A DNA stretch of 64,000 bases. Origin: a virus. The DNA is taken from the IMG/VR virus record IMGVR_UViG_3300035183_000096, positions 62,001 to 126,000 of that record. One strand, given 5' to 3'. Position 1 is the first letter of the stretch, and every line of letters starts with the position of its first letter. A program made the position numbers and the translations under genes. Positions 11,401-41,054 of the stretch are shown piece by piece. The notes beneath the pieces are model-generated. The model was not told where the DNA came from, searched no databases, and saw only the letters and a list, made by a program, of their open reading frames with translations.

Positions 11401-14400
11401 TTTGCTCTGGACTTATATCGGTTGTCTTACCGACATTCGTAGCACCAACTAATTGTTCTTCGACTTCACCAAGAGTTGCTCCACCGAATGCGGCAGAACG
11501 CACATTTCTAAACTGGCCCGTCAATTCAAAGATAGCCTTACGAATTTCCAAAGGTAGATTTTCTATACCTACTTGTCTTGCTGCTAGTAAGCCCTTAGCT
11601 CCCAAGTTTAATCTCTGTAGTTGTTCAGGGTCAGAAGTCAATAGAGTCTTAGCTAAACTACGACGCTCACCTCTTTCTTGCTCAATAGCGTTTAACTTCT
11701 CAGAAGCAATAGCAGCTTTATCAGCATTCTCCGCCAAGTTACGGAGAGCCTGTCTTGCGTTTGCGGCGGCGTTCTGGAATTGAATTAATTCAGCAGCAGC
11801 TTTAGCAGATGCCTCACTACCAACTGGGGCACTATCCCTTCTCTTTAGAGCTTCTTCGGCCTTTTTTTCATTATAAGCTATAACTTTACTTATGGCGACT
11901 GGGTCATTGGCCTCAGCACCCTTTAGACCAGTAAGCCTCTCCTGTCCAATTTGGAATGGCCGAGTAAGTTGATTTATAGTTAGAAAATCAGTAACACTAC
12001 CTTGACGGCCTTCTGCTCTAGCCTGGAATAATGCGTTGGTTTTAGCAAGAGAAAGTTCAAGGTTGTCAATCTTACCTCTTTCGCTGTTGACAAGGTTGCC
12101 TTGCTTAGCTCCCTGAGCAAGACCCGCATTTAGTCTTCCCGCTTGGTCATACAAAGCTCTTCCCATTTCAGCTAAGGCCTTCTTAAACGGGTTGAAATCA
12201 CCAAGAAGTTCTTCGGTTATTTTTTCTGGAGATTCCCTAAGTTTTTCAGCTATATCCTCTGGTTTTGACCCTTCCGCTTTGGATACGATACTATCTGTTA
12301 TTTCTTTAGGTATATTATTAGCATCAAGTTGTTCGCGAAGTTCAATGCCTAGATTTTTTTTACCAAACGCGCTTGATTTAAGAACTGTTGATAGTATTGA
12401 TGGTAGTATTCTTTCGGCTTTATTTAGACCATTAGCGAGTACACCTAATTGATTGTTAGGCACTTGAGCAGTTATGTCTAATATACTTTGATTGAAAGCG
12501 TCCTGATTAGGAGCGCCAAATTGTCTAATACCTTCCTCTGTGTTTCTAAAAGCTATAGGTGTAAAACCACTGTCGAACTTATCAGTCACTAATGTAATCG
12601 AACGTCCAAGGTCTGTAACGCTTTGTGACGCCGTGCTGAAAGCCTGAGCCAATCTATTTATGCTTGACAATACATTATTTACTTCGATAGCAGCATCCTT
12701 TCTTCCTCGTTCAATAGATAATGCCTTTGCTTGCTCCCTAAAAGACTTAACAAAGTCATTCAAAACCTTATCAACTGGCACATTCTTTACTAAGGATATA
12801 GAGCTGAGAATGTCTCTATTGTTTATAGCAAAGTTCTTCTTGAAGTTTTCTACTTCCGCATTAAGTTCTTGTTCATTTAATGTTCTAGTAGTTATCTGTT
12901 TAGCGAAGTTAGCTATTTCCTTATTCATCGCTTCAGCAAGAGCAGGTAATTGCAAACCTAATTGTTGTTTTATGTTAGATAGAGTAGTATCTGCTATTTC
13001 TTGATTCTTGGGTCTAAAGTCGTATTCAGTGGCGCTTAAATCACCAAAAGTATTACCACTTATTAAACCAAGGAATCTACTACCAAAAGCCTTAACTCTA
13101 TTAAATCCCTCATCAACGAATGTTTGTTCAAATTGCTTACTAGTTTTATTAATAGAAGCATCAACTACTTGTCTTGTTATAGAATTAATAGATGCAATAT
13201 TTCCACCCTTACCAGAGTTGAACTCTTCTAACTGTTGTTGAAATTTAGTAAATGTCTTTTCAAGCTCAACTTCAGCTAACTTTTGATTAGTTTCCTTAAC
13301 AGCCTGAGCAAAACCCAATGCGGCACCAGCGGCAGCACCAAAGGCTACACCAATCGGTCCAAACGCAACACCAATACCGGCACCTATACCAGCACCAGAA
13401 AGTGCACCACCAATCCTTTCTTCTCTAACAGCTTGATTTCTTAATGCTTCATTTGGGGCTGTTTCAATAGACAAACCTTTTGTTCTACCAAATTGTTCAA
13501 ACAATACAGACGCGGCGGCTATACCTGTTACACCAGCTACACTGGCTGTTTTACTAAGTTGAGCAAATTTTTGTTTCTTAGCTTCCTTTTCATACTTTTT
13601 AGCATCCGGCAATGTTGTTCTTGCTTCCTTTAATCTTTGTGCTTCTTCTTGGGCTTTATTTCTACTCCTCTCTATAATATCACGTTGTCTTTGAACATCA
13701 GGTTGACTTTCAAAACTCTTTCTGGCCGATTCTGCCTCACGTTCTATTTTCTGAAAACTAGGTAGGCCAAGTGTAGCCTGTCTTTTGTTGAAAGCTCTTA
13801 ATGCCTTCTGTCTATCTACTTCATTGATACCACCCTCTAAAGTGGCTATCTCATCCGGAGTAGCAGAAGCAGCTCTAGCTTTAGCGGCTGTAAGACCTAA
13901 ACCTTCTTGCCTTCTAATGGTTGTTATAAGAGTCCTATCCTTCAATTCAGACTTAGCCGTATCTAAAGCAACACCAGCATTAACCAGTCTAGTGTCAGAA
14001 ACCTCACGGCTCGCTATATCACGCTCTGCTCTTTTACGTGAGGAGGCAGTATCTTTAAGACCCCTAACAGCACTTCTTTCTTGACGTTCAATCTGATATA
14101 CACGTTTACTTGCCTCATTCAGTGCTTTGAATGCGTTAGTGGTTTCCTTTATACTAGAAACCAAATTAACCATGGTTCCAGCAAGTACGGTTATAACAGC
14201 AAAGCCCTCTATACCAGAACTAGCCGGAATAGGAGTGCCGCCAGTCTGAAAGCGTTGAACTACACCACCAGTATGATAACGAGGTAATTCACCAGTCTGA
14301 TTCATCTTGTCTAAGTTTTGCTTACCAAGACGAGCCGCACTTTGCTTAGAAAGAACGTACTCACCAGGAGTAAGTAAGGCCGGAACCTCACCACCACTAG

Positions 14401-16558
14401 CTCTTGATATAGCTCCATATTTTTTATCAATCTCCTTTGGTGGCTTTTGACGAGGCTCGTCAGTCTCTTCTTCTTCGACACCATACCGTCTAATAGCTTT
14501 GGACAAAACTTTAATTCTAGCTTCCTCGTTATCCGTTAATTTGGCGTCACCATTACTACCCAATGTTCCTGGGAAAATTTTATCAATAGACTTAGGAACT
14601 TTAGGAAAATCAAAGTCTTGATTAGAACTAACAATCTTAGTATTTGCTATAGCTTGTAGTGCTGCTTCAAAGATTCTACCTTGACCTTGAGGATTTACAA
14701 CCTTATCAACTAAATCATCATCTATTTTCTCAACATTTCCACCAAAAACATCATTAGCTATTTGACTTACAGCAGTTTTTACACTGGACCTAAACTTAAT
14801 ACCCAACTCATTCTCAGCCTTAACAGATGGTCCAACTGTACGCATAGTAGCCGTTGCTTTTCTTGCTTTACCAATTTTCTCGCGTGCCTCTTCTGTTAGT
14901 TTTCCTCTAGGAGCAACAATAGTGGCAAACTCTGAACTACCCTTCTTATTAGGATTTAAGTATAGTAATGATAATCCTCTACCTCCGTCTTTAGCCCTAA
15001 CAACTCCACCCTGACCATACTTATTTATGCGCTCTAGCGTACCATAACCTATAGCTTGAGCAGACTGCTTGCGAATGACATATTCACCTGGAGTTAGGTA
15101 AGCTGGAACCGTATCTCCGTCACCAGTTCCAGGTACTATACCACCACCAGCCCTATTAATTGGTCTTCCCAACGTATCAGAACGCCCTAAAAAACCTGAA
15201 CCAACACTATTAAAAAACGCTCCTAGAGAAGAGCTTAACTTAACAGCGGCTAAAGCTGTAAGCAAAGGAACAAGTGGTTTAATGGCCTCAATTAAGGTTA
15301 GAGCATTTTTGGTTGCTGTGGCTAAGAAAGTAACTAGATAGTTAAAGCCTTGAGATTGTACAATAGACCTACCTAGAGCTAAGATTTCTTCCTTAACTTT
15401 AGTAAGTTGAACTATGTAAGCCTCTTGCGCTTGTTTAGCATTAACAGTGAGGGAAATACCGCCGGATTGAGCTACGTTAAGAGCTTTCTGAGCAGTTTCA
15501 AACTCTTGAATAAGTGGCACTACCTTTGAGATTTGACGTATGCCACCAATCTCTTCAACAATGGAAGCGAATCTTGTATCTGTTGTTGGTAGATTCTTAA
15601 GAGCTATACTTAATCTACGAATAGCTTCATATGGACCTACGAACTTACCTTCTAGGTTAGCATCACCAAGAGAAACAGCTTCTTCTTTCGTTCTTCTAAG
15701 TTGAATGCCGAGCGCCTCAAGCTCTTTAATTGTTTCTGGGCGTTGAATACGAGCAAAGATTGTGCGAAAAGCCGTAGCGATACTTTCAGCGCTTTCGCGG
15801 GTTGTAGCACGAACGCTTGTAAATAGAGCTATTAACTCATTTAAGTCACCACCAGCTACTTTGAAAGCTCCACCAGTACGCTTAATAGCATCAATCAAGT
15901 CCCTAGACTCAACGGCGAATGCACCAGCAACAGCGTTAATAGAACCTAACTGTTCTTCCAAATCGTTGGCTCCTGTCTTGAATTGTTGCATTATAGCAAC
16001 AACACCTTCGGTGGTTGACTTCAAATCATCGAAGTTAGGAGCTAGAGCGGCCTTAGCTAATGCCTCAAGAGAGGTTTGCACATCTTGTGTTGCTAAACCA
16101 GCTTGTTTGAGGACTACGGCAGCGGCCAATAACTCTTTGGAACTCACACCAAGAGTTTTAGATAATCCAGTGATTTCCTTTTCTAGTTGTGAAATCGTAC
16201 CGTAAGTGTCTCCGCTAACCTGAGCGAGTCTAACTAATTCGCGCTGGAATTTAACAGCCTCACCAATGGCTTCTTTTAGAGTACCAACAAATGTAATAAA
16301 GCCACCAGCAGCAATAGTATAAGCTAAAAATCTCTTAGCTGCTATACCAGTCTGCTCACCAAGTTTATATATGGAATCAGTAACCTTATCAGCCCCATCC
16401 TTAATCGCTCTTAAAGATGTGGTAGCGGCAGCAATGTTAGGAGCATCAACTTTGATATTTGCGTTTAAGCCTTGAAGTTGAGACTTCATTTGAGCCAAAA
16501 CGGTACCAAGGTTTTGCGGACTGCGTACTATTAAATTAACATAAGCATTCATTGCCAC
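8462..16558 (-). CDS. Tail tape measure protein (~2698 aa)
   Basis: The longest gene of the window, rich in helices and coiled-coil segments with Ala/Gly-rich hydrophobic stretches (for example around VAGVTGIAAASVLFEQFG and IGAGIGVAFGPIGVAFGAA). The N-terminal ~450 residues follow the phage tape-measure core pattern: FQRELVRLAQVSG, ELLAAAVVLKQAGLATQDV, ATAFRTIFARIQRPETI. Four copies of a DTVPA.LTPGEYV motif punctuate the protein, as known from many tape measure proteins. At about 1.5 angstrom per residue the length predicts a tail near 0.4 micrometre if unprocessed. I take GTG at 16558 as the start (GAGG six bases upstream); ATG at 16552 is the alternative. A longer reading to 16597 lacks a good site. 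Confidence 0.93.
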   Translation of the reverse strand: MAMNAYVNLIVRSPQNLGTVLAQMKSQLQGLNANIKVDAPNIAAATTSLRAIKDGADKVTDSIYKLGEQTGIAAKRFLAYTIAAGGFITFVGTLKEAIGEAVKFQRELVRLAQVSGDTYGTISQLEKEITGLSKTLGVSSKELLAAAVVLKQAGLATQDVQTSLEALAKAALAPNFDDLKSTTEGVVAIMQQFKTGANDLEEQLGSINAVAGAFAVESRDLIDAIKRTGGAFKVAGGDLNELIALFTSVRATTRESAESIATAFRTIFARIQRPETIKELEALGIQLRRTKEEAVSLGDANLEGKFVGPYEAIRRLSIALKNLPTTDTRFASIVEEIGGIRQISKVVPLIQEFETAQKALNVAQSGGISLTVNAKQAQEAYIVQLTKVKEEILALGRSIVQSQGFNYLVTFLATATKNALTLIEAIKPLVPLLTALAAVKLSSSLGAFFNSVGSGFLGRSDTLGRPINRAGGGIVPGTGDGDTVPAYLTPGEYVIRKQSAQAIGYGTLERINKYGQGGVVRAKDGGRGLSLLYLNPNKKGSSEFATIVAPRGKLTEEAREKIGKARKATATMRTVGPSVKAENELGIKFRSSVKTAVSQIANDVFGGNVEKIDDDLVDKVVNPQGQGRIFEAALQAIANTKIVSSNQDFDFPKVPKSIDKIFPGTLGSNGDAKLTDNEEARIKVLSKAIRRYGVEEEETDEPRQKPPKEIDKKYGAISRASGGEVPALLTPGEYVLSKQSAARLGKQNLDKMNQTGELPRYHTGGVVQRFQTGGTPIPASSGIEGFAVITVLAGTMVNLVSSIKETTNAFKALNEASKRVYQIERQERSAVRGLKDTASSRKRAERDIASREVSDTRLVNAGVALDTAKSELKDRTLITTIRRQEGLGLTAAKARAASATPDEIATLEGGINEVDRQKALRAFNKRQATLGLPSFQKIEREAESARKSFESQPDVQRQRDIIERSRNKAQEEAQRLKEARTTLPDAKKYEKEAKKQKFAQLSKTASVAGVTGIAAASVLFEQFGRTKGLSIETAPNEALRNQAVREERIGGALSGAGIGAGIGVAFGPIGVAFGAAAGAALGFAQAVKETNQKLAEVELEKTFTKFQQQLEEFNSGKGGNIASINSITRQVVDASINKTSKQFEQTFVDEGFNRVKAFGSRFLGLISGNTFGDLSATEYDFRPKNQEIADTTLSNIKQQLGLQLPALAEAMNKEIANFAKQITTRTLNEQELNAEVENFKKNFAINNRDILSSISLVKNVPVDKVLNDFVKSFREQAKALSIERGRKDAAIEVNNVLSSINRLAQAFSTASQSVTDLGRSITLVTDKFDSGFTPIAFRNTEEGIRQFGAPNQDAFNQSILDITAQVPNNQLGVLANGLNKAERILPSILSTVLKSSAFGKKNLGIELREQLDANNIPKEITDSIVSKAEGSKPEDIAEKLRESPEKITEELLGDFNPFKKALAEMGRALYDQAGRLNAGLAQGAKQGNLVNSERGKIDNLELSLAKTNALFQARAEGRQGSVTDFLTINQLTRPFQIGQERLTGLKGAEANDPVAISKVIAYNEKKAEEALKRRDSAPVGSEASAKAAAELIQFQNAAANARQALRNLAENADKAAIASEKLNAIEQERGERRSLAKTLLTSDPEQLQRLNLGAKGLLAARQVGIENLPLEIRKAIFELTGQFRNVRSAAFGGATLGEVEEQLVGATNVGKTTDISPEQKAQIEALQQIVQDNNKLQIQAQRELVNNLNQANTNFIKDIEEQFKSFLSKLENSQTEVRRADLQQRKIKTEAAISQIENGGIASKKILSEKFGITTDEQINLIRANQSSFTKLKELNESKSRFDEKEIDNILTKLGPIYNRAGRGIEHYKFDDGGGGGVASQLSLATRNPLLAYIYSKINDKDGRVVISESRKPLLTKQLTEAGIPAEVAGKVLEVFERRFVQGGDKFRESLNNPNNLQKLFRESIAEVFQAESSNLTRQIEAQETEIQQRFTSAGQDDLFNRIKSDPSKITRIIDEAGKIGSSLKDLDTQFQALKKTLEVINGAISKLPPEPEKKAAGGIIFKPHGSDTVPAMLTPGEYVVNARAASKHLGLLNKINSGQDVIYASSGGLIDTSIGMIISINLQEKRRKLKEEEDYLNRRLNKKRITYKRPQARLAAEQDIRFKQAVLGEQNILGNTGLPGFDAFVKSSRQAKGNEFENIAERQAKIERILKFSNTPADKSGQIERAKEIRLLETELYFKDQLAKIGNYRKLEVLGTTDEQIGDKLDSEFSKFLKIKKYEDRLKVIKRLEQRFAILRKRNYNSPSYGFVEAGNELFVSDIVDEIGLGRKNKGQQEVRDENKKGQQVLFIHRKSYPETVEDKIAAIEAKENKLRDEFFKLNKTDREMVSERLKELANKKELYLTLQELQNPYKHRYMLTDDDARDFLGILPEEDIQKKIADLRDYERRLVALSNNENITKPGAKLEQQLATVRNNLSKLTDSKNVRFRTSYYSSGPDEPTTAYITTFDEKGNPDAHLIEQELGPLDVVRNYDRKRFARYASGGVVTGHGAGDKVPALLSAGEYVLNKNAVSRIGTANLHKVNYFAQGGSVPIPTGNGGGGLSSAVDSFNTATATLKSVFDSFIGGTQTLAQAMNNFPRQIEGVFTHRMEVLFNGAEVLTRLQPVMKEVAEEAVYQAISSLKNDFDAQGIRISYPNNTGK
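8815..8950 (-). repeat. Tape measure LSAGEYV motif, copy 4
   Basis: Encodes ASGGVVTGHGAGDKVPALLS and then AGEYVLNKNAVSRIG close to the C terminus. The usual LTPGEYV is changed to LSAGEYV here. Confidence 0.8.
10261..10390 (-). repeat. Tape measure LTPGEYV motif, copy 3
   Basis: Encodes AAGGIIFKPHGSDTVPAMLT and then PGEYVVNARAASKHLG. It is separated from copy 2 by about 3.9 kb of helical sequence. Confidence 0.8.
14263..14405 (-). repeat. Tape measure LTPGEYV motif, copy 2
   Basis: Encodes ASGGEVPALLTPGEYVLSKQ and then a Ser-Ala-Ala-Arg-Leu-Gly helix, ending in HTGGVV. It lies within 1 kb of copy 1. Confidence 0.8.
15009..15160 (-). repeat. Tape measure DTVPA-LTPGEYV motif, copy 1
   Basis: Encodes GDGDTVPAYLTPGEYVIRKQ followed by a Ser-Ala-Gln-Ala-Ile-Gly helix start and a Gly-rich end. 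This is the first of four copies of the same ~45-residue unit in the tape measure protein. Confidence 0.8.
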
Positions 16559-16604
16559 ATTAAACCTCACTAAAAGCAAAAAGCCGCAGCGTACCAAGCG
16601 TGAG

Positions 16605-16640
16605 TTCTTGGCGTACTACGACTTAATGCTATCCTAATAG
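16605..16640 (-). promoter_or_regulatory. Hairpin in the leader of the tape measure gene
   Basis: In the 87 bases between the upstream gene and the tape measure start, the minus strand can form a stem with CCAAG/CTTGG at its core and a flanking GTAC/GTAC. A T-rich tract (GGCTTTTTGCTTTT) follows about eight bases later. It may act as a weak attenuator before the very long tape measure gene. No homologue was compared. Confidence 0.4.
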
Positions 16641-16645
16641 AAGGG

Positions 16646-17623
16646 TTATTCCTTCTTGTTTTCTATCTTAGTCGTCTCTTCTTTAGCCTGCCTTAACTTA
16701 GCCTTTCTTTCTTCCCATTCAATCTTCTTTTTTCTAAACTCTTCTAACTCAGCTTTATACTCATCATCCAGTATGGGCTTACCTTGCTCATCTACAAATG
16801 GTTGTGGTTCCACTAAGTATTCGCCTTCATCCGTAAAAGCATTACCATTTATGTCTATCAAATCACCTTCATCATTTACCGGGCGACCAAACTCATCAAT
16901 TAGTTGCCCTTTACGATTGATTCGTTTGCCCTCTTTATTGATTAAGTTTAACTCATTATCCATAAATCCATACTTAATCAACCATGCGTTTTCGGGTAAG
17001 TCTTTCAGAGAATCACGACGATTACCAAAAAATAGCTCATAGAAAGCTGATGTAGCCTGTTCTATAACTGGATACTCTTTATCATCATCGGAGCGTTTGT
17101 ACTGAGCTTTATCGGAGAAATCTTCATAGGAAGAAAAAACTCTTTTATTAGTATCTTCATACACCGTACAGGCGTAGATTAAATAGTTAATACGGGCACT
17201 ACTTGCGCGTCCTTCCGCGGAGTTCATTTCAAGAGATGTGCGAAGGGATGTCATCTCAAATAATTCATTCCTAAGTTCCTGCATTTCAATAGCAAGACCA
17301 TAGTATGTATTTTTATCAAACACGCCATGACTTCCCTTTTGCATAGGCTCTGTGCGCCTCTTTAACTTTAACTCACTATCAAATAACTTCCTTTTAAGTT
17401 CCGCAAACCTCTTATCCATTTCCTCAGTCCAAACATTCTGTTCCCTGAGTGACTTTTCCAGTTTAGCGGCTAACGGAATACCCATATCAAGACATTCATT
17501 ATAAGTTTTTGCGTGTACTCTATCACCTTCTTTCAATTCTTCAGCGGTAGGTAATCTAACAACTATCTGCTTATCATTTAGTTTGGCCTTAATCGGTACA
17601 CTTGGTCCTTTAATCTTAGACAT
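16646..17623 (-). CDS. Tail assembly chaperone-position protein, paralogue of the 357-aa protein (325 aa)
   Basis: A 325-residue charged, mainly helical protein directly upstream of the tape measure gene. Its N-terminal half parallels that of the 357-aa protein two genes upstream: a short beta start, PTAEEL...RVHAKTYNECLDMG, then A..EK.L.E..VW and a coiled-coil F..L...L region, then NYLIYACTVY. The C-terminal part (residues ~225-275) is a run of short KG/EG-turn units (NKEGKRINRKGQLIDEFGRP), resembling small beta repeats. Gene order (tube, these proteins, tape measure) is where tail assembly chaperones are coded, which is the basis of the call. Confidence 0.5.
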   Translation of the reverse strand: MSKIKGPSVPIKAKLNDKQIVVRLPTAEELKEGDRVHAKTYNECLDMGIPLAAKLEKSLREQNVWTEEMDKRFAELKRKLFDSELKLKRRTEPMQKGSHGVFDKNTYYGLAIEMQELRNELFEMTSLRTSLEMNSAEGRASSARINYLIYACTVYEDTNKRVFSSYEDFSDKAQYKRSDDDKEYPVIEQATSAFYELFFGNRRDSLKDLPENAWLIKYGFMDNELNLINKEGKRINRKGQLIDEFGRPVNDEGDLIDINGNAFTDEGEYLVEPQPFVDEQGKPILDDEYKAELEEFRKKKIEWEERKAKLRQAKEETTKIENKKE

Positions 17624-35209: not shown

Positions 35210-35386
35210 ATGGCTAAACGCAATCCGAGTGACTTCGAGGGTCTTCACGAAGACTTCGAGGACGAAGCACTACCGATTGAGTGCTTCGAGATTGAGGAAG
35301 AGGAATTCGACCGCTTCCGCTACGACGGGTACGATGTCCCAATGCCAGAGTATGATGCATATTGGGACACTGACTACCCATGGTAG
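35210..35386 (+). CDS. Acidic small protein (58 aa)
   Basis: I take the ATG at 35210 (MAKRNPSDFEGLHEDFEDEA), which has GGGGG seven bases upstream and follows the membrane peptide stop; a longer reading from 35060 would overlap that gene. The protein is strongly acidic with repeated FD/FE and a Tyr-rich tail (YDGYDVPMPEYDAYWDTDYP). It may be a DNA mimic or partner protein, but this is only suggested by composition. Confidence 0.55.
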   Translation: MAKRNPSDFEGLHEDFEDEALPIECFEIEEEEFDRFRYDGYDVPMPEYDAYWDTDYPW

Positions 35387-35394
35387 CAGAGGGA

Positions 35395-35416
35395 GCACGG
35401 GGCGTATGCCCCGTGC
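35395..35416 (+). ncRNA. Island hairpin 1 (9-bp GC stem)
   Basis: GCACGGGGC pairs with GCCCCGTGC around the loop GTAT, 8 bases after the 58-aa gene. It shares the preceding GCAGAGGG and the GCACGGGG arm with the hairpins at 35872 and 36937. Confidence 0.7.
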
Positions 35417-35451
35417 CGCGAGCTAGTGGCCGCTTTGGCGTAACACAGGGA

Positions 35452-35485
35452 GGTGGGGCATATCATTATACCCCGCCCCTTTTTT
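35452..35485 (+). terminator. Intrinsic terminator in the island, copy 1
   Basis: GGTGGGG pairs with CCCCGCC (7 bp, one G-T) around CATATCATTATA and is followed by CC and TTTTTT. It is related in sequence to the terminator at 36308. Confidence 0.8.
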
Positions 35486-35594
35486 ATTGTCGCCTGACCA
35501 GGCGGCGAAAAAAAAGAAAAAAAACTGAATCCTATAGTAATTTCCAGCATCTATATATATGTATGAGGCAACCGGTAGGCAGAAAGGAGCATCT

Positions 35595-35855
35595 ATGGCT
35601 AGAGTAAAGGTAGAGGACCGGCGGCTTGACCGCCGGCTACTCAGCGTCGATAACCTACGCCCCGGCGAATCTATGGTTGCCGAACTTTCCACCATTGGTG
35701 ACCTTGACGGGCAGGTCGGGGTCGTAATGCGGACGGCGTTTAACCCTCCGGAACTGCACTTCTTGACTGAAGAAGGCCAGTTCGTAAAACTCGGTGTTGA
35801 CACCGAGTTCTACAAATCATATTGCTGCGTAACCGTACAAAACGTGTGGTATTAA
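35595..35855 (+). CDS. GESMV-family small protein, paralogue 1 (86 aa)
   Basis: 86 residues with a conserved core LRPGESMVAELSTIGDLDGQ, VGVVMRT, LHFLTEEGQF and FYKS. It is one of three paralogues in 1.4 kb; shared pattern: V.(v/i)(e/d)..., dL.pGeSMV.el, dG..Gi(i/v)Mkt, L.FltaEG.f..L..Dt.FYkS...V.V.n. ATG 35595 has AAAGGAG and a six-base spacer; an upstream ATG at 35559 lacks one. A small beta-rich fold is likely. No named family is recognised. Confidence 0.75.
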   Translation: MARVKVEDRRLDRRLLSVDNLRPGESMVAELSTIGDLDGQVGVVMRTAFNPPELHFLTEEGQFVKLGVDTEFYKSYCCVTVQNVWY

Positions 35856-35871
35856 CCACATGGCAGAGGGG

Positions 35872-35954
35872 GCACGGGGAGCACGCCCCGTGCTTAATGC
35901 GGGCACCCTTACGGTGAGGGTGCACGGTCCCAACTCCGCTCCAAGGGGAAAATC
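35872..35954 (+). ncRNA. Two-hairpin RNA leader, copy A
   Basis: Hairpin a: GCACGGGG (35872-35879) with CCCCGTGC (35886-35893), loop AGCACG. Hairpin b: 35903-35911 with 35915-35923, nine pairs including one G-T, loop CGG. Then CGGTCCCAACTCCG and an AAGGGGA site lead into the GTG of the 113-aa gene. It matches copy B position by position, with compensatory stem changes. Confidence 0.7.
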
Positions 35955-36296
35955 GTGGTCACTCTGACAGCAGAGGCCGATTACGGCCTCAGCGGCCAGT
36001 ACATCGCCCAGATTACTGGCCGGGACAAGAAGTATGTTTTTAGTCGGGAATTCGTAGGCCGCAAATGCGGCCGCCGTAATGAAACAACAGAAGCCCGCGT
36101 CGATGACGCTGGGCTTTACGAAGTCTGTAATGCCACAAGACACGGCAAGAACAGCCGTTTTGTGGTATTAGCCGAAGTGGGTGGCGAACTCCGGGTAATT
36201 AAGATTACCCGGGAACAAGCCATGAAAATTGCAAAGGCCCTGGATGACGGCCAGGATTTTGCGGACTTAGTCCGCGACCTGGCCACCGCACCTTGA
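35955..36296 (+). CDS. Hypothetical island protein (113 aa)
   Basis: Starts at GTG 35955 behind CCAAGGGGAAAATC, directly after the two-hairpin leader. 113 residues: MVTLTAEADYGLSGQYIAQI, Cys-containing GRKCGRRNETTEARVDDAGL, a beta part (RFVVLAEVGGELRVIKITRE) and a C-terminal helix. Unknown family. The stop overlaps the -35-like TTGACA of a downstream promoter candidate. Confidence 0.65.
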   Translation: MVTLTAEADYGLSGQYIAQITGRDKKYVFSREFVGRKCGRRNETTEARVDDAGLYEVCNATRHGKNSRFVVLAEVGGELRVIKITREQAMKIAKALDDGQDFADLVRDLATAP

Positions 36297-36321
36297 CAAA
36301 GAGGTAGGGGGCGGATATATT
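36293..36321 (+). promoter_or_regulatory. Sigma70-like promoter overlapping a terminator
   Basis: TTGACA at 36293-36298, a 17-base spacer and TATATT at 36316-36321. The -10 box falls in the loop of the terminator at 36308-36340. It would serve the two downstream GESMV-family genes. The -35 overlaps the stop of the 113-aa gene. Confidence 0.45.
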
Positions 36322-36340
36322 ATTATACCCGCCCCTTTTT
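36308..36340 (+). terminator. Intrinsic terminator in the island, copy 2
   Basis: GGGGCGG pairs with CCGCCCC (7 bp) around ATATATTATTATAC, followed by TTTTT. Its loop and 3' side closely resemble the terminator at 35452. Confidence 0.8.
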
Positions 36341-36389
36341 ATGGGGTCAGTAGGAAACCAGTCCTGTTCCACCCGAAAGGAGGAAACTG

Positions 36390-36665
36390 ATGGTGTTCGT
36401 AAAAGTTGAAGATTCGGAACGTCGCGAGCGAAGCCGGCTGCTTTACTCGGAAGACCTACAGGCCGGTTCGTCTATGGTGGTAGGAATATCATCCTATTCC
36501 AGGGGCCTCAATGGGGTTACTGGGATATTGATGAAGCCGATTATTGACTCAGGCAAACTATACTTCTTCCACTCGGAAGAAGGCCGGATTTGGGAATTAG
36601 GTGGGGATGTATTGTTTTACCCATCTACTTCAACAATTAGTGTAAAAAATGCAAAAGGAGGATAA
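36390..36665 (+). CDS. GESMV-family small protein, paralogue 2 (91 aa)
   Basis: 91 residues, the most diverged of the three: MVFVKVEDSERRERSRLLYS, DLQAGSSMVVGISSYSRGLN, GVTGILMKPIIDSGKLYFFH, SEEGRIWELGGDVLFYPST. GES is changed to GSS. AAAGGAGGAAACTG precedes the ATG. It lies three bases from paralogue 3. Confidence 0.75.
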   Translation: MVFVKVEDSERRERSRLLYSEDLQAGSSMVVGISSYSRGLNGVTGILMKPIIDSGKLYFFHSEEGRIWELGGDVLFYPSTSTISVKNAKGG

Positions 36666-36668
36666 TAA

Positions 36669-36926
36669 ATGGCAAAAGTGACAATTGATAACCAGCAAAA
36701 GAGGCAAATATTTACTGTGCATGACCTTAAACCGGGCGAATCCATGGTTGTCGAACTTCGTACCGTAGATGATGCCGACGGAAGAACAGGCATCATCATG
36801 AAGACGCCGTTTTGCCCAACCAGTCTTTTTTTTCTGACTGCGGAAGGGGAATTCCATCATTTGTCCAATGATACAGTCTTTTATAAATCAAAAAATAAGG
36901 TAATAGTGGAAAATGCTCCAGAATGA
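36669..36926 (+). CDS. GESMV-family small protein, paralogue 3 (85 aa)
   Basis: 85 residues: MAKVTIDNQQKRQIFTVHDL, KPGESMVVELRTVDDADGRT, GIIMKTPFCPTSLFFLTAEG, EFHHLSNDTVFYKSKNKVIV. It is closest to paralogue 1 in the core. GGAGGATAATAA precedes the ATG and overlaps the end of paralogue 2, so the two are translationally linked. Confidence 0.75.
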   Translation: MAKVTIDNQQKRQIFTVHDLKPGESMVVELRTVDDADGRTGIIMKTPFCPTSLFFLTAEGEFHHLSNDTVFYKSKNKVIVENAPE

Positions 36927-36936
36927 CGCAGAGGGG

Positions 36937-37020
36937 GCACGGGGAACACGCCCCGTGCTTAATGCAGACGCCCTTATCGTAAGGGCGTGCGGTCCCAACT
37001 CCGTTATAAAGGGGTGAAAG
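36937..37020 (+). ncRNA. Two-hairpin RNA leader, copy B
   Basis: Hairpin a: GCACGGGG (36937-36944) with CCCCGTGC (36951-36958), loop AACACG. Hairpin b: ACGCCCTTA (36968-36976) with TAAGGGCGT (36980-36988), loop TCG. Then CGGTCCCAACTCCG and an AAAGGGGTG site lead to the ATG at 37021. Relative to copy A, two stem pairs swap (G-C to A-T, A-T to G-C) and one T-G becomes T-A. Confidence 0.7.
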
Positions 37021-37770
37021 ATGTTAAGCTTCACCAAGGGGAACAAAAAACTTCGCGTCCACAATGGCCTGTGGACATTCAGCTTACCCGCGGGGCATAG
37101 CTGTCCCGGTGCCTTAGACTGCCTGTCTAAGGCTGACCCTGAAACTGGTAAAGTGCGGGACGGGCGTAGCACCAAGTTCCGGTGCTACGCCACCAGTGAG
37201 GAAGCATTTAAGCCCAGCGTCAGAGTGTCACGCTGGAACAATTTTAAGCAAGTGAAAAGGATGCTATCACAAAAAGACGGCGTCCATAAACTTGCCGACT
37301 TAATCAATGCCAGCCTTCCGAAGAAGGCAAGAATTATCCGGATTCACGCATCCGGAGACTTTTTTAACTATGAATACATGAAAGCTTGGCACATTGTTGC
37401 CGAACGTAACCCGGACATTTTATTCTATGGCTACACGAAATCCTTAGACTTTTGGGTTCGTTTAGAAAGGGAATATGCCGGATTGGCACATAATTTTGTG
37501 CTCACCGCCAGCGTTGGCGGGAGGCATGATTGGATGATTGAGGCACGACGACTGCAAAAAGCAGTTGTGGTGTTCAGTGAGGAAGAGGCCCAAAGCCTCG
37601 GACTCCCTATCGACCACGACGACACGCACGCTATGCGTCGGCAGGGCGATTTTGCCCTGTTGATTCACGGGGTTCAGCCAGCCGGTACCCCGGCGGCAAA
37701 GGCCCTGGCTAAACTCAAAAGCCAGGGGTATAATAAAAATCGTCGGCTCGCTCTACCAATGGTAGGGTAA
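37021..37770 (+). CDS. GP88-like phage protein with CxxxxxC and CYA motifs (249 aa)
   Basis: 249 residues. N-terminal HNGLWTFSLPAGHSCPGALD is followed by a second Cys, then FRCYATSEEAFKPSVRVSRW; then RIIRIHASGDFFNYEYMKAW and ILFYGYTKSLDFWVR. This set (CPGA..C, CYA, SGDF, YTKS) is what I recall for the mycobacteriophage gene product 88 family, and it also resembles DUF5131 proteins. Clustered Cys residues suggest a metal or Fe-S site, but the activity is unknown. It starts directly after leader copy B. Confidence 0.6.
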   Translation: MLSFTKGNKKLRVHNGLWTFSLPAGHSCPGALDCLSKADPETGKVRDGRSTKFRCYATSEEAFKPSVRVSRWNNFKQVKRMLSQKDGVHKLADLINASLPKKARIIRIHASGDFFNYEYMKAWHIVAERNPDILFYGYTKSLDFWVRLEREYAGLAHNFVLTASVGGRHDWMIEARRLQKAVVVFSEEEAQSLGLPIDHDDTHAMRRQGDFALLIHGVQPAGTPAAKALAKLKSQGYNKNRRLALPMVG

Positions 37771-40585: not shown

Positions 40586-40659
40586 ATGGCGAGGTAGCCC
40601 AACGGTAGGAGGCACTACGCTTAGAACGTAGGTAGTGTGGGTTCGAGTCCCTCCCTCGC
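40586..40659 (+). tRNA. tRNA with anticodon TAG (Leu, CUA)
   Basis: Acceptor GGCGAGG/CCTCGCT (G1-T72), short D stem GCC/GGC with GG in its loop, anticodon stem CTACG/CGTAG with loop CTTAGAA, T arm GTGGG-TTCGAGT-CCCTC (one T-T mismatch), A at position 73, no encoded CCA. The variable loop is only GTAGT, so the long arm of normal tRNA-Leu is missing; charging identity is therefore uncertain. Confidence 0.85.
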
Positions 40660-40664
40660 TACTT

Positions 40665-40738
40665 ATGGGAGCGTAGGCCAAAAGAAGAGTCAGCGGACTT
40701 AAAATCCGTACAGTGCGGGTGCAAGACCCGCCGCTCCT
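40665..40738 (+). tRNA. tRNA with anticodon TAA (Leu, UUA)
   Basis: Acceptor GGGAGCG/CGCTCCT, anticodon stem GCGGA/TCCGT with loop CTTAAAA, T arm GCGGG-TGCAAGA-CCCGC, A73, no encoded CCA. The variable loop is ACAGT and the T loop is TGCAAGA in place of TTCRANN. The same class I-like form appears as in the neighbour five bases upstream. Confidence 0.85.
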
Positions 40739-41054
40739 ACTCATGAACATACTGTTGAGCCGAGTGTAAGGCAAACAACTATCGGCCTATACAACAAACG
40801 TCAAGAGTATGGTTATGACCCAACGGCAGTTGAGCATGAAGAACGATTTCGCAGTCTCTTATGCTCCAGCAAAGTCTTACGTTCACGTTAGTCTAACTAA
40901 CAGCAATCTACTCGTAGGGCGAGAGTTTCGACAGATTGCTACGTCACAGGGTTTCGATTCCCCTATCATCCACTTAGGTAAACGGCTATGCTTACTACAC
41001 CTAATCATCAATAGCGTCTTACGAGCGCTGGCCACGGTTACAGGGAGGAAATAT
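40739..41054 (+). ncRNA. Hairpin-rich region after the tRNAs, candidate structured RNA
   Basis: No convincing gene. Stems include 40741-40753 with 40806-40818 (12 of 13 pairs); GCCGA/TCGGC and TGTTG/CAACA inside it; GAGCAT(G)AAGA with TCTTATGCTC; AGCAATCT/AGATTGCT enclosing CTCG/CGAG; AGGG/CCCT with loop TTTCGATTC; and TTAGGT/ACCTAA. An open frame covers part of it in extension of the next gene, but that gene has its own strong start at 41055. It could be a phage RNA of the GOLLD kind (which often sits by tRNAs), a decayed tRNA tract, or a new RNA. Confidence 0.45.

Follow-up and report, generated by a model that had tools for sequence, protein, structure and literature searches.

The window, the whole stretch of DNA that we analyzed, is 64,000 nucleotides long (bases 62001 to 126000 of a 126,592-base virus record) and encodes a terminase large subunit. 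At two junctions between open reading frames (ORFs), similar structured elements, which we call copies A and B, separate one gene from the next (Table 1). The ORFs immediately upstream of the two copies are paralogues (48% amino acid identity), and the one before copy A matches no family in Pfam or PHROG. The only match for the ORF that follows copy A is a weak one to a PHROG whose function is unknown. The ORF that follows copy B belongs to the GP88 family and is preceded by a Shine-Dalgarno (SD)-type AAAGGGG at 37008-37014. Neither DNA searches nor searches with the small upstream protein identified relatives among annotated phages or viral contigs.

Table 1. Features of the two junctions and their surroundings (positions are those of the window)
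Feature	Position	Strand	Details
Copy A, type-P5 twister ribozyme (predicted)	35862-35939	+	RF02684, core bases, T1 and T2 pairing
Copy B, type-P5 twister ribozyme (predicted)	36927-37004	+	RF02684
Copy A stem P1 (hairpin a of the first-pass annotation)	35872-35893	+	Arms GCACGGGG/CCCCGTGC
Copy B stem P1	36937-36958	+	As in copy A, with a single loop change
Copy A stem P3 (hairpin b of the first-pass annotation)	35903-35923	+	9 pairs, compensatory relative to B
Copy B stem P3	36968-36988	+	9 pairs
Predicted cleavage step, copy A (U-A)	35895-35896	+	Alignment to the twister scissile step
Predicted cleavage step, copy B (U-A)	36960-36961	+	Alignment to the twister scissile step
Copy C, remnant	35384-35416	+	TAG stop, GCAGAGGG, and an intact P1
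ORF, 86 amino acids	35595-35855	+	Ends 6 nt before copy A; paralogue of 36669-36926
ORF, 113 amino acids, 3' of copy A	35955-36296	+	GTG start; AAGGGG at 35943-35948
ORF, 85 amino acids	36669-36926	+	TGA stop abuts copy B; paralogue of 35595-35855
ORF, 249 amino acids, GP88 family, 3' of copy B	37021-37770	+	ATG start; PF17338, E = 3e-40

Some other features lie nearby. The ORF at 36390-36665, a third member of the paralogous set found 5' of A and B, lacks an accompanying ribozyme, and the next ORF begins 3 nt later. The small operons end at 35440-35490 and 36300-36345 in long hairpins that resemble each other; both hairpins have an AT-rich loop (GGGGCATATCATTATACCCC-type), precede a T-run, and overlap a promoter-like match. 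Farther downstream, a T4-type RNA ligase (PF09511, 41627-42610, plus strand) lies 3' of two tRNA-Leu genes (40588-40740, with tag and taa anticodons). These could form a tRNA repair set, or the ligase could act on ribozyme-made ends.

Based on sequence matches and covariation, which together define both class and fold, copies A and B are almost certainly type-P5 twister ribozymes. Copy B scored 40.6 bits against the Rfam covariance model RF02684, which is above the gathering score of 37.6 bits (E = 5.2e-5, searching the whole window). Copy A matched the full model (positions 1-58) with E = 1.6e-5 in a search of 2.3 kb, but its 36.9 bits are slightly below the gathering score; this score and a short P4 are its weak points. 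RF02684 is the best match within its clan. The conserved core bases (GCAGAG, UAAUGC, and GGUCNCAA) are found in both, and the elements occur in the order GCAGAGG, P1 hairpin, UAAUGC, P3, P4. This is the type-P5 permutation, in which a loop closes P1 and the termini are on the P5 side. Stems P1, P2, and P4, the optional P3, the pseudoknots, and the U-A step also correspond, and the fold does not differ from that of twister-P5. Although the first-pass annotation proposed a cis-regulatory RNA of no obvious known class, the Rfam match rules out a hitherto unclassified regulatory RNA. The only Rfam families that we identified, either at gathering scores or at E up to 0.3, were tRNA and twister-P5, with no riboswitch among them. 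Relaxing the threshold to an E of 10 revealed no further RF02684 copies in the 126,592-base record.

This phage thus has only two intact copies, plus one remnant (copy C), which escapes detection by Rfam. The P1 arms of copy C are the same as those of A and B, but TTAATGC is replaced by CGCGAGC and the catalytic 3' half is gone. A terminator-like hairpin and T-run follow at about 35455-35485 (identified by eye, as the loop exceeds the limit of the terminator scan).

To describe the fold, we number the first matched base as 1, so that position i is window position 35861+i in copy A and 36926+i in copy B. P2 consists of G2-C39, C3-G38, and A4-U37; P1 pairs 11-18 with 25-32; P3 pairs 42-50 with 54-62; and P4 consists of C64-G77, G65-C76, and G66-C75. 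Pseudoknot T1 is formed by GGG and CCC in both copies (G7-C70, G8-C69, and G9-C68), and pseudoknot T2 is formed by position 40 with U74 (G-U in A, A-U in B) and by G41-C73. The scissile step of twisters is the U-A that adjoins P1 (PMC5408937), so we predict that each copy is cut at the corresponding step (Table 1). According to computed folding (-18.4 kcal/mol), the P1 hairpin would sit flush at the 3' terminus of the upstream product. The downstream product would begin with a structured leader of 59-60 nt, followed by the start codon of the next gene. Given the class of ribozyme, cleavage in vivo is very probable.

The two copies align over 78 nt without gaps and with 12 differences. Three changes from A to B are compensatory within P3: G42-C62 becomes A-U, A44-U60 becomes G-C, and the wobble pair U49-G55 becomes U49-A55. 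The first-pass annotation described these changes correctly, and its view that the two copies share a selected, cis-acting structure is borne out: the compensatory changes are genuine, and both stems and pseudoknots covary. It missed a fourth structural change, from G40-U74 to A40-U74 in T2. Its wording that the copies match except at stem positions also needs correcting, as differences 1, 20, 51, 52, 63, and 78 lie in loops, in linkers, or at the ends. The first-pass boundaries also dropped the 5' strand GCAGAGG(G), at 35863-35870 in A and 36928-36935 in B, which is the part of the catalytic core that forms P2 and T1. The elements do lie just 5' of start codons, but they are more than leaders for the genes that follow: each starts at the preceding gene's stop codon and is therefore part of a gene-gene junction. 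Pairing of a CCCC arm with the GGGG of the SD site is not required, because this CCCC forms the 3' side of P1.

The paralogy of the two upstream ORFs shows that a unit of gene plus ribozyme was duplicated. Within the duplicated units, the ribozyme is 66/77 identical (86%), as compared to 141/255 for the coding part (55%; Fisher P = 5e-7). The better conservation of the ribozyme points to selection on it in this window.

We also asked if additional copies would show changes that break the stems, as the first-pass annotation had suggested checking. Across 131 unique cores, there was instead strong covariation of the stems and of both pseudoknots. The three T1 pairs are intact in 131, 131, and 129 of the 131 cores, with A-U, U-A, or C-G replacing G-C in some of them: for instance, CAGAGAG occurs with UCUC, and CAGAGUG occurs with UCAC. 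The two T2 pairs are intact in 128 and 113 cores. The middle pairs of P1 and P4 are intact in 127-131 cores, which is far more than in shuffled sequences. The loops of P1 and P3 are variable, with no conserved aptamer-like sequence.

We also searched more broadly. A degenerate pattern matched 65 stretches in viral contigs, and of the pattern-matched contigs, 48 were searched as whole records; RF02684 was found in all 48. The highest copy numbers were 20 in contig G027 (90.6 kb), 15 in G001, 14 in G022, and 9 each in G013 and G040. From 14 array stretches (149 kb from 13 other virus contigs), we collected 107 RF02684 matches at or above the gathering score, in same-strand arrays; since the contigs were picked for the presence of the motif and, for arrays, for high copy number, and since some homologous genes are shared, these 107 matches are not fully independent. 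Just 82 of them were also found by the pattern search, which missed some true copies, so our statistics rest on the Rfam matches. In bacterial genome contigs, the pattern matched 30 times, but only 6 of these matches survived a filter for pairing; the remainder are therefore probably, for the most part, chance matches.

Most of the ribozymes in the arrays have a fixed register relative to genes: a stop codon lies within -12 to +2 nt of the start of CAGAG, and an SD site and start codon follow the 3' end by no more than 60 nt. This arrangement was found for 90 of the 107 matches, as compared to 3.4% of positions chosen at random on the same strand and 3/107 on the antisense strand, although any intergenic element in a compact phage genome will fall near a stop and a start. 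In 31 of the 107 cases, a TAG stop codon supplies the first G of GCAGAGG. More broadly, TAG is the stop codon of 44 of 86 genes that precede ribozymes (51%) but of only 16 of 104 other genes (15%; P = 1.5e-7). A ribozyme is present at 97 of 176 gene junctions in the arrays. As 43 of the ribozyme-free junctions are 15 nt or less, the occupancy of wider junctions (over 15 nt) is 97/133, and in G027 (stretches L101 and L102), 19 of 21 wider junctions are occupied.

Twister-P5 is thus tied to gene junctions, and the flanking genes are mostly unrelated. Clustering of the 142 flanking proteins gives 125 families, of which 113 have a single member, and the proteins with annotations include GrpE, RadC, a VWA protein, a radical SAM protein, DUF932, and DUF2786. 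In other viral contigs (L014-L016), homologues of GP88 occur without an adjoining ribozyme, so the association is not with GP88.

Our gene calls for the arrays are simple ones, but they agree with an independently annotated genome, that of the cultured phage Tunturi_4 (PP885687; L115). Tunturi_4 infects Tunturiibacter empetritectus M8UP27, a member of the Acidobacteriota. Its genome contains four unannotated twister-P5 ribozymes (48-62 bits, within 11980-16780), which lie in the deposited gaps gp88/gp87, gp87/gp86, gp81/gp80, and gp79/gp78. The paper describing Tunturi_4 does not mention ribozymes.

We propose that these ribozymes probably serve as intercistronic punctuation, which would separate messages and protect or insulate their ends. 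The proposal is based on position, gene independence, and end chemistry; position and gene independence are supported by the statistics on related phages. As a polycistronic transcript emerges, each ribozyme, which lies 3' of one gene's stop codon and 5' of the next gene's SD site, would fold (P1, P2, P3, P4, T1, and T2) and cut itself once at the U-A step after P1. The upstream mRNA would then end just past its stop codon, with a flush P1 hairpin and a 2',3'-cyclic phosphate. The downstream mRNA would begin with 5'-OH-AAUGC and the P3/P4 leader, followed by its SD site and start codon. One transcript would thereby become several messages that are separately stable and separately translated, regardless of which genes flank the ribozymes. 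We infer the stabilizing or insulating effect. The type-P5 arrangement requires a closed P1 hairpin, so the presence of P1 does not by itself prove that ends are protected. More tentatively, twister-P5 might be general intercistronic punctuation in many dsDNA phages, with a ribozyme in nearly every operon gap, joined directly to the preceding gene's stop codon. If so, RNA alone would process transcripts at the scale of operons, yielding single-gene mRNAs with structured ends.

Alternatively, cleavage could be switched by a ligand, by a protein, or by translation of the upstream gene, which would make the twisters gene control devices. The glmS ribozyme is a precedent for regulated self-cleavage. 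In one form of this idea, a ribosome that occupies the stop codon hides the 5' strand and slows folding: the 5' core strand starts at or inside the stop codon, with exact overlap in the TAG cases described above, so a terminating ribosome should mask P2 and T1. However, the variable P1 and P3 loops lack anything resembling a conserved aptamer, and the diversity of the flanking genes speaks against one shared ligand and against control of specific genes. We consider regulation unlikely. It is somewhat less likely still that the ribozymes are selfish or hitchhiking elements that multiply when gene-plus-ribozyme units are duplicated and recombined, without benefit to the phage. A and B do lie in duplicated units, some arrays (such as L101 and L027) contain similar ribozyme-plus-SD tails, and copy C has decayed. 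But selfish spread is disfavored by a ribozyme that is more conserved than the adjacent coding sequence, by the many compensatory changes in stems and pseudoknots, and by the strict orientation and register.

A third alternative, which we view as very improbable, is that pairs of cuts release gene-length RNAs whose ends are ligated into circles or repaired by ligases. A 5'-OH and a 2',3'-cyclic phosphate are suitable ends for this, and genes for suitable ligases are present: one for a T4-type RNA ligase in this phage and one for RtcB in contig G029. However, each of these ligases is found in just 1 of 19 ribozyme-bearing records, so circularization is not favored, and for prophage hammerheads, circles were sought but not found (PMC3088659). 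Finally, an ordinary terminator, attenuator, or uncharacterized riboswitch leader would fit GC-rich hairpins shortly 5' of start codons but is scarcely credible given the complete twister match, and the terminator that the first-pass annotation had raised as an alternative is ruled out, as neither copy has a terminator call at its hairpins or a U-run after them.

The proposed role resembles that of RiboJ-type synthetic insulators, in which a self-cleaving ribozyme beside the SD site standardizes the 5' end of an mRNA. Those insulators are engineered and based on hammerheads, whereas the twisters here are natural and occur at successive junctions. The idea of punctuation is not new: Perreault et al. 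proposed it in 2011 for tandem prophage hammerheads, which cut polycistronic RNA in vitro and, for one triple arrangement, in E. coli as well (PMC3088659). As in the twister arrays, phage genes, singly or in blocks, are flanked there by multiple ribozymes, but the hammerheads are of another class and form small clusters (three tandem arrangements were tested, one of them triple), as compared to up to 20 copies here. The tight register from stop codon to ribozyme to SD site was not found in the passages of that paper that we consulted. Several same-strand ribozymes flank individual genes in the related phages, while the phage studied here has the two intact copies and the remnant.

The Weinberg group reported an enrichment of bacterial hammerheads and twisters in the vicinity of Mu-like phage genes and of one another, and stated that the role of these bacterial and phage ribozymes, and the reason for their clustering, are unknown (PMC10085705). 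Ribozymes likewise cluster in phage-related loci in our data, but they associate with junctions rather than with particular genes, and the flanking proteins are mostly unrelated. What is distinctive here is that twister-P5 is placed precisely in the stretch from the stop codon of one phage gene to the SD site of its neighbor and, in some related phages, forms large arrays. In the literature that we searched, which did not include the original twister papers, neither punctuation by twisters at the scale of operons nor arrays of up to 20 copies in a fixed register were described. Given the register, the arrays, the gene independence, and a cultured phage-host pair (Tunturi_4), the role of these ribozymes becomes a question that the mapping of RNA ends could settle.

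Other observations concern individual contigs. G027 (L101/L102) and G022 (L103) contain some of the densest arrays of self-cleaving ribozymes in this analysis. In G029 (L117), ribozymes occur together with RtcB, which is a ligase for the type of ends that twisters make. In L013 (4417-4632), a type-II hammerhead ribozyme lies about 80 nt 5' of a twister-P5, on the same strand.
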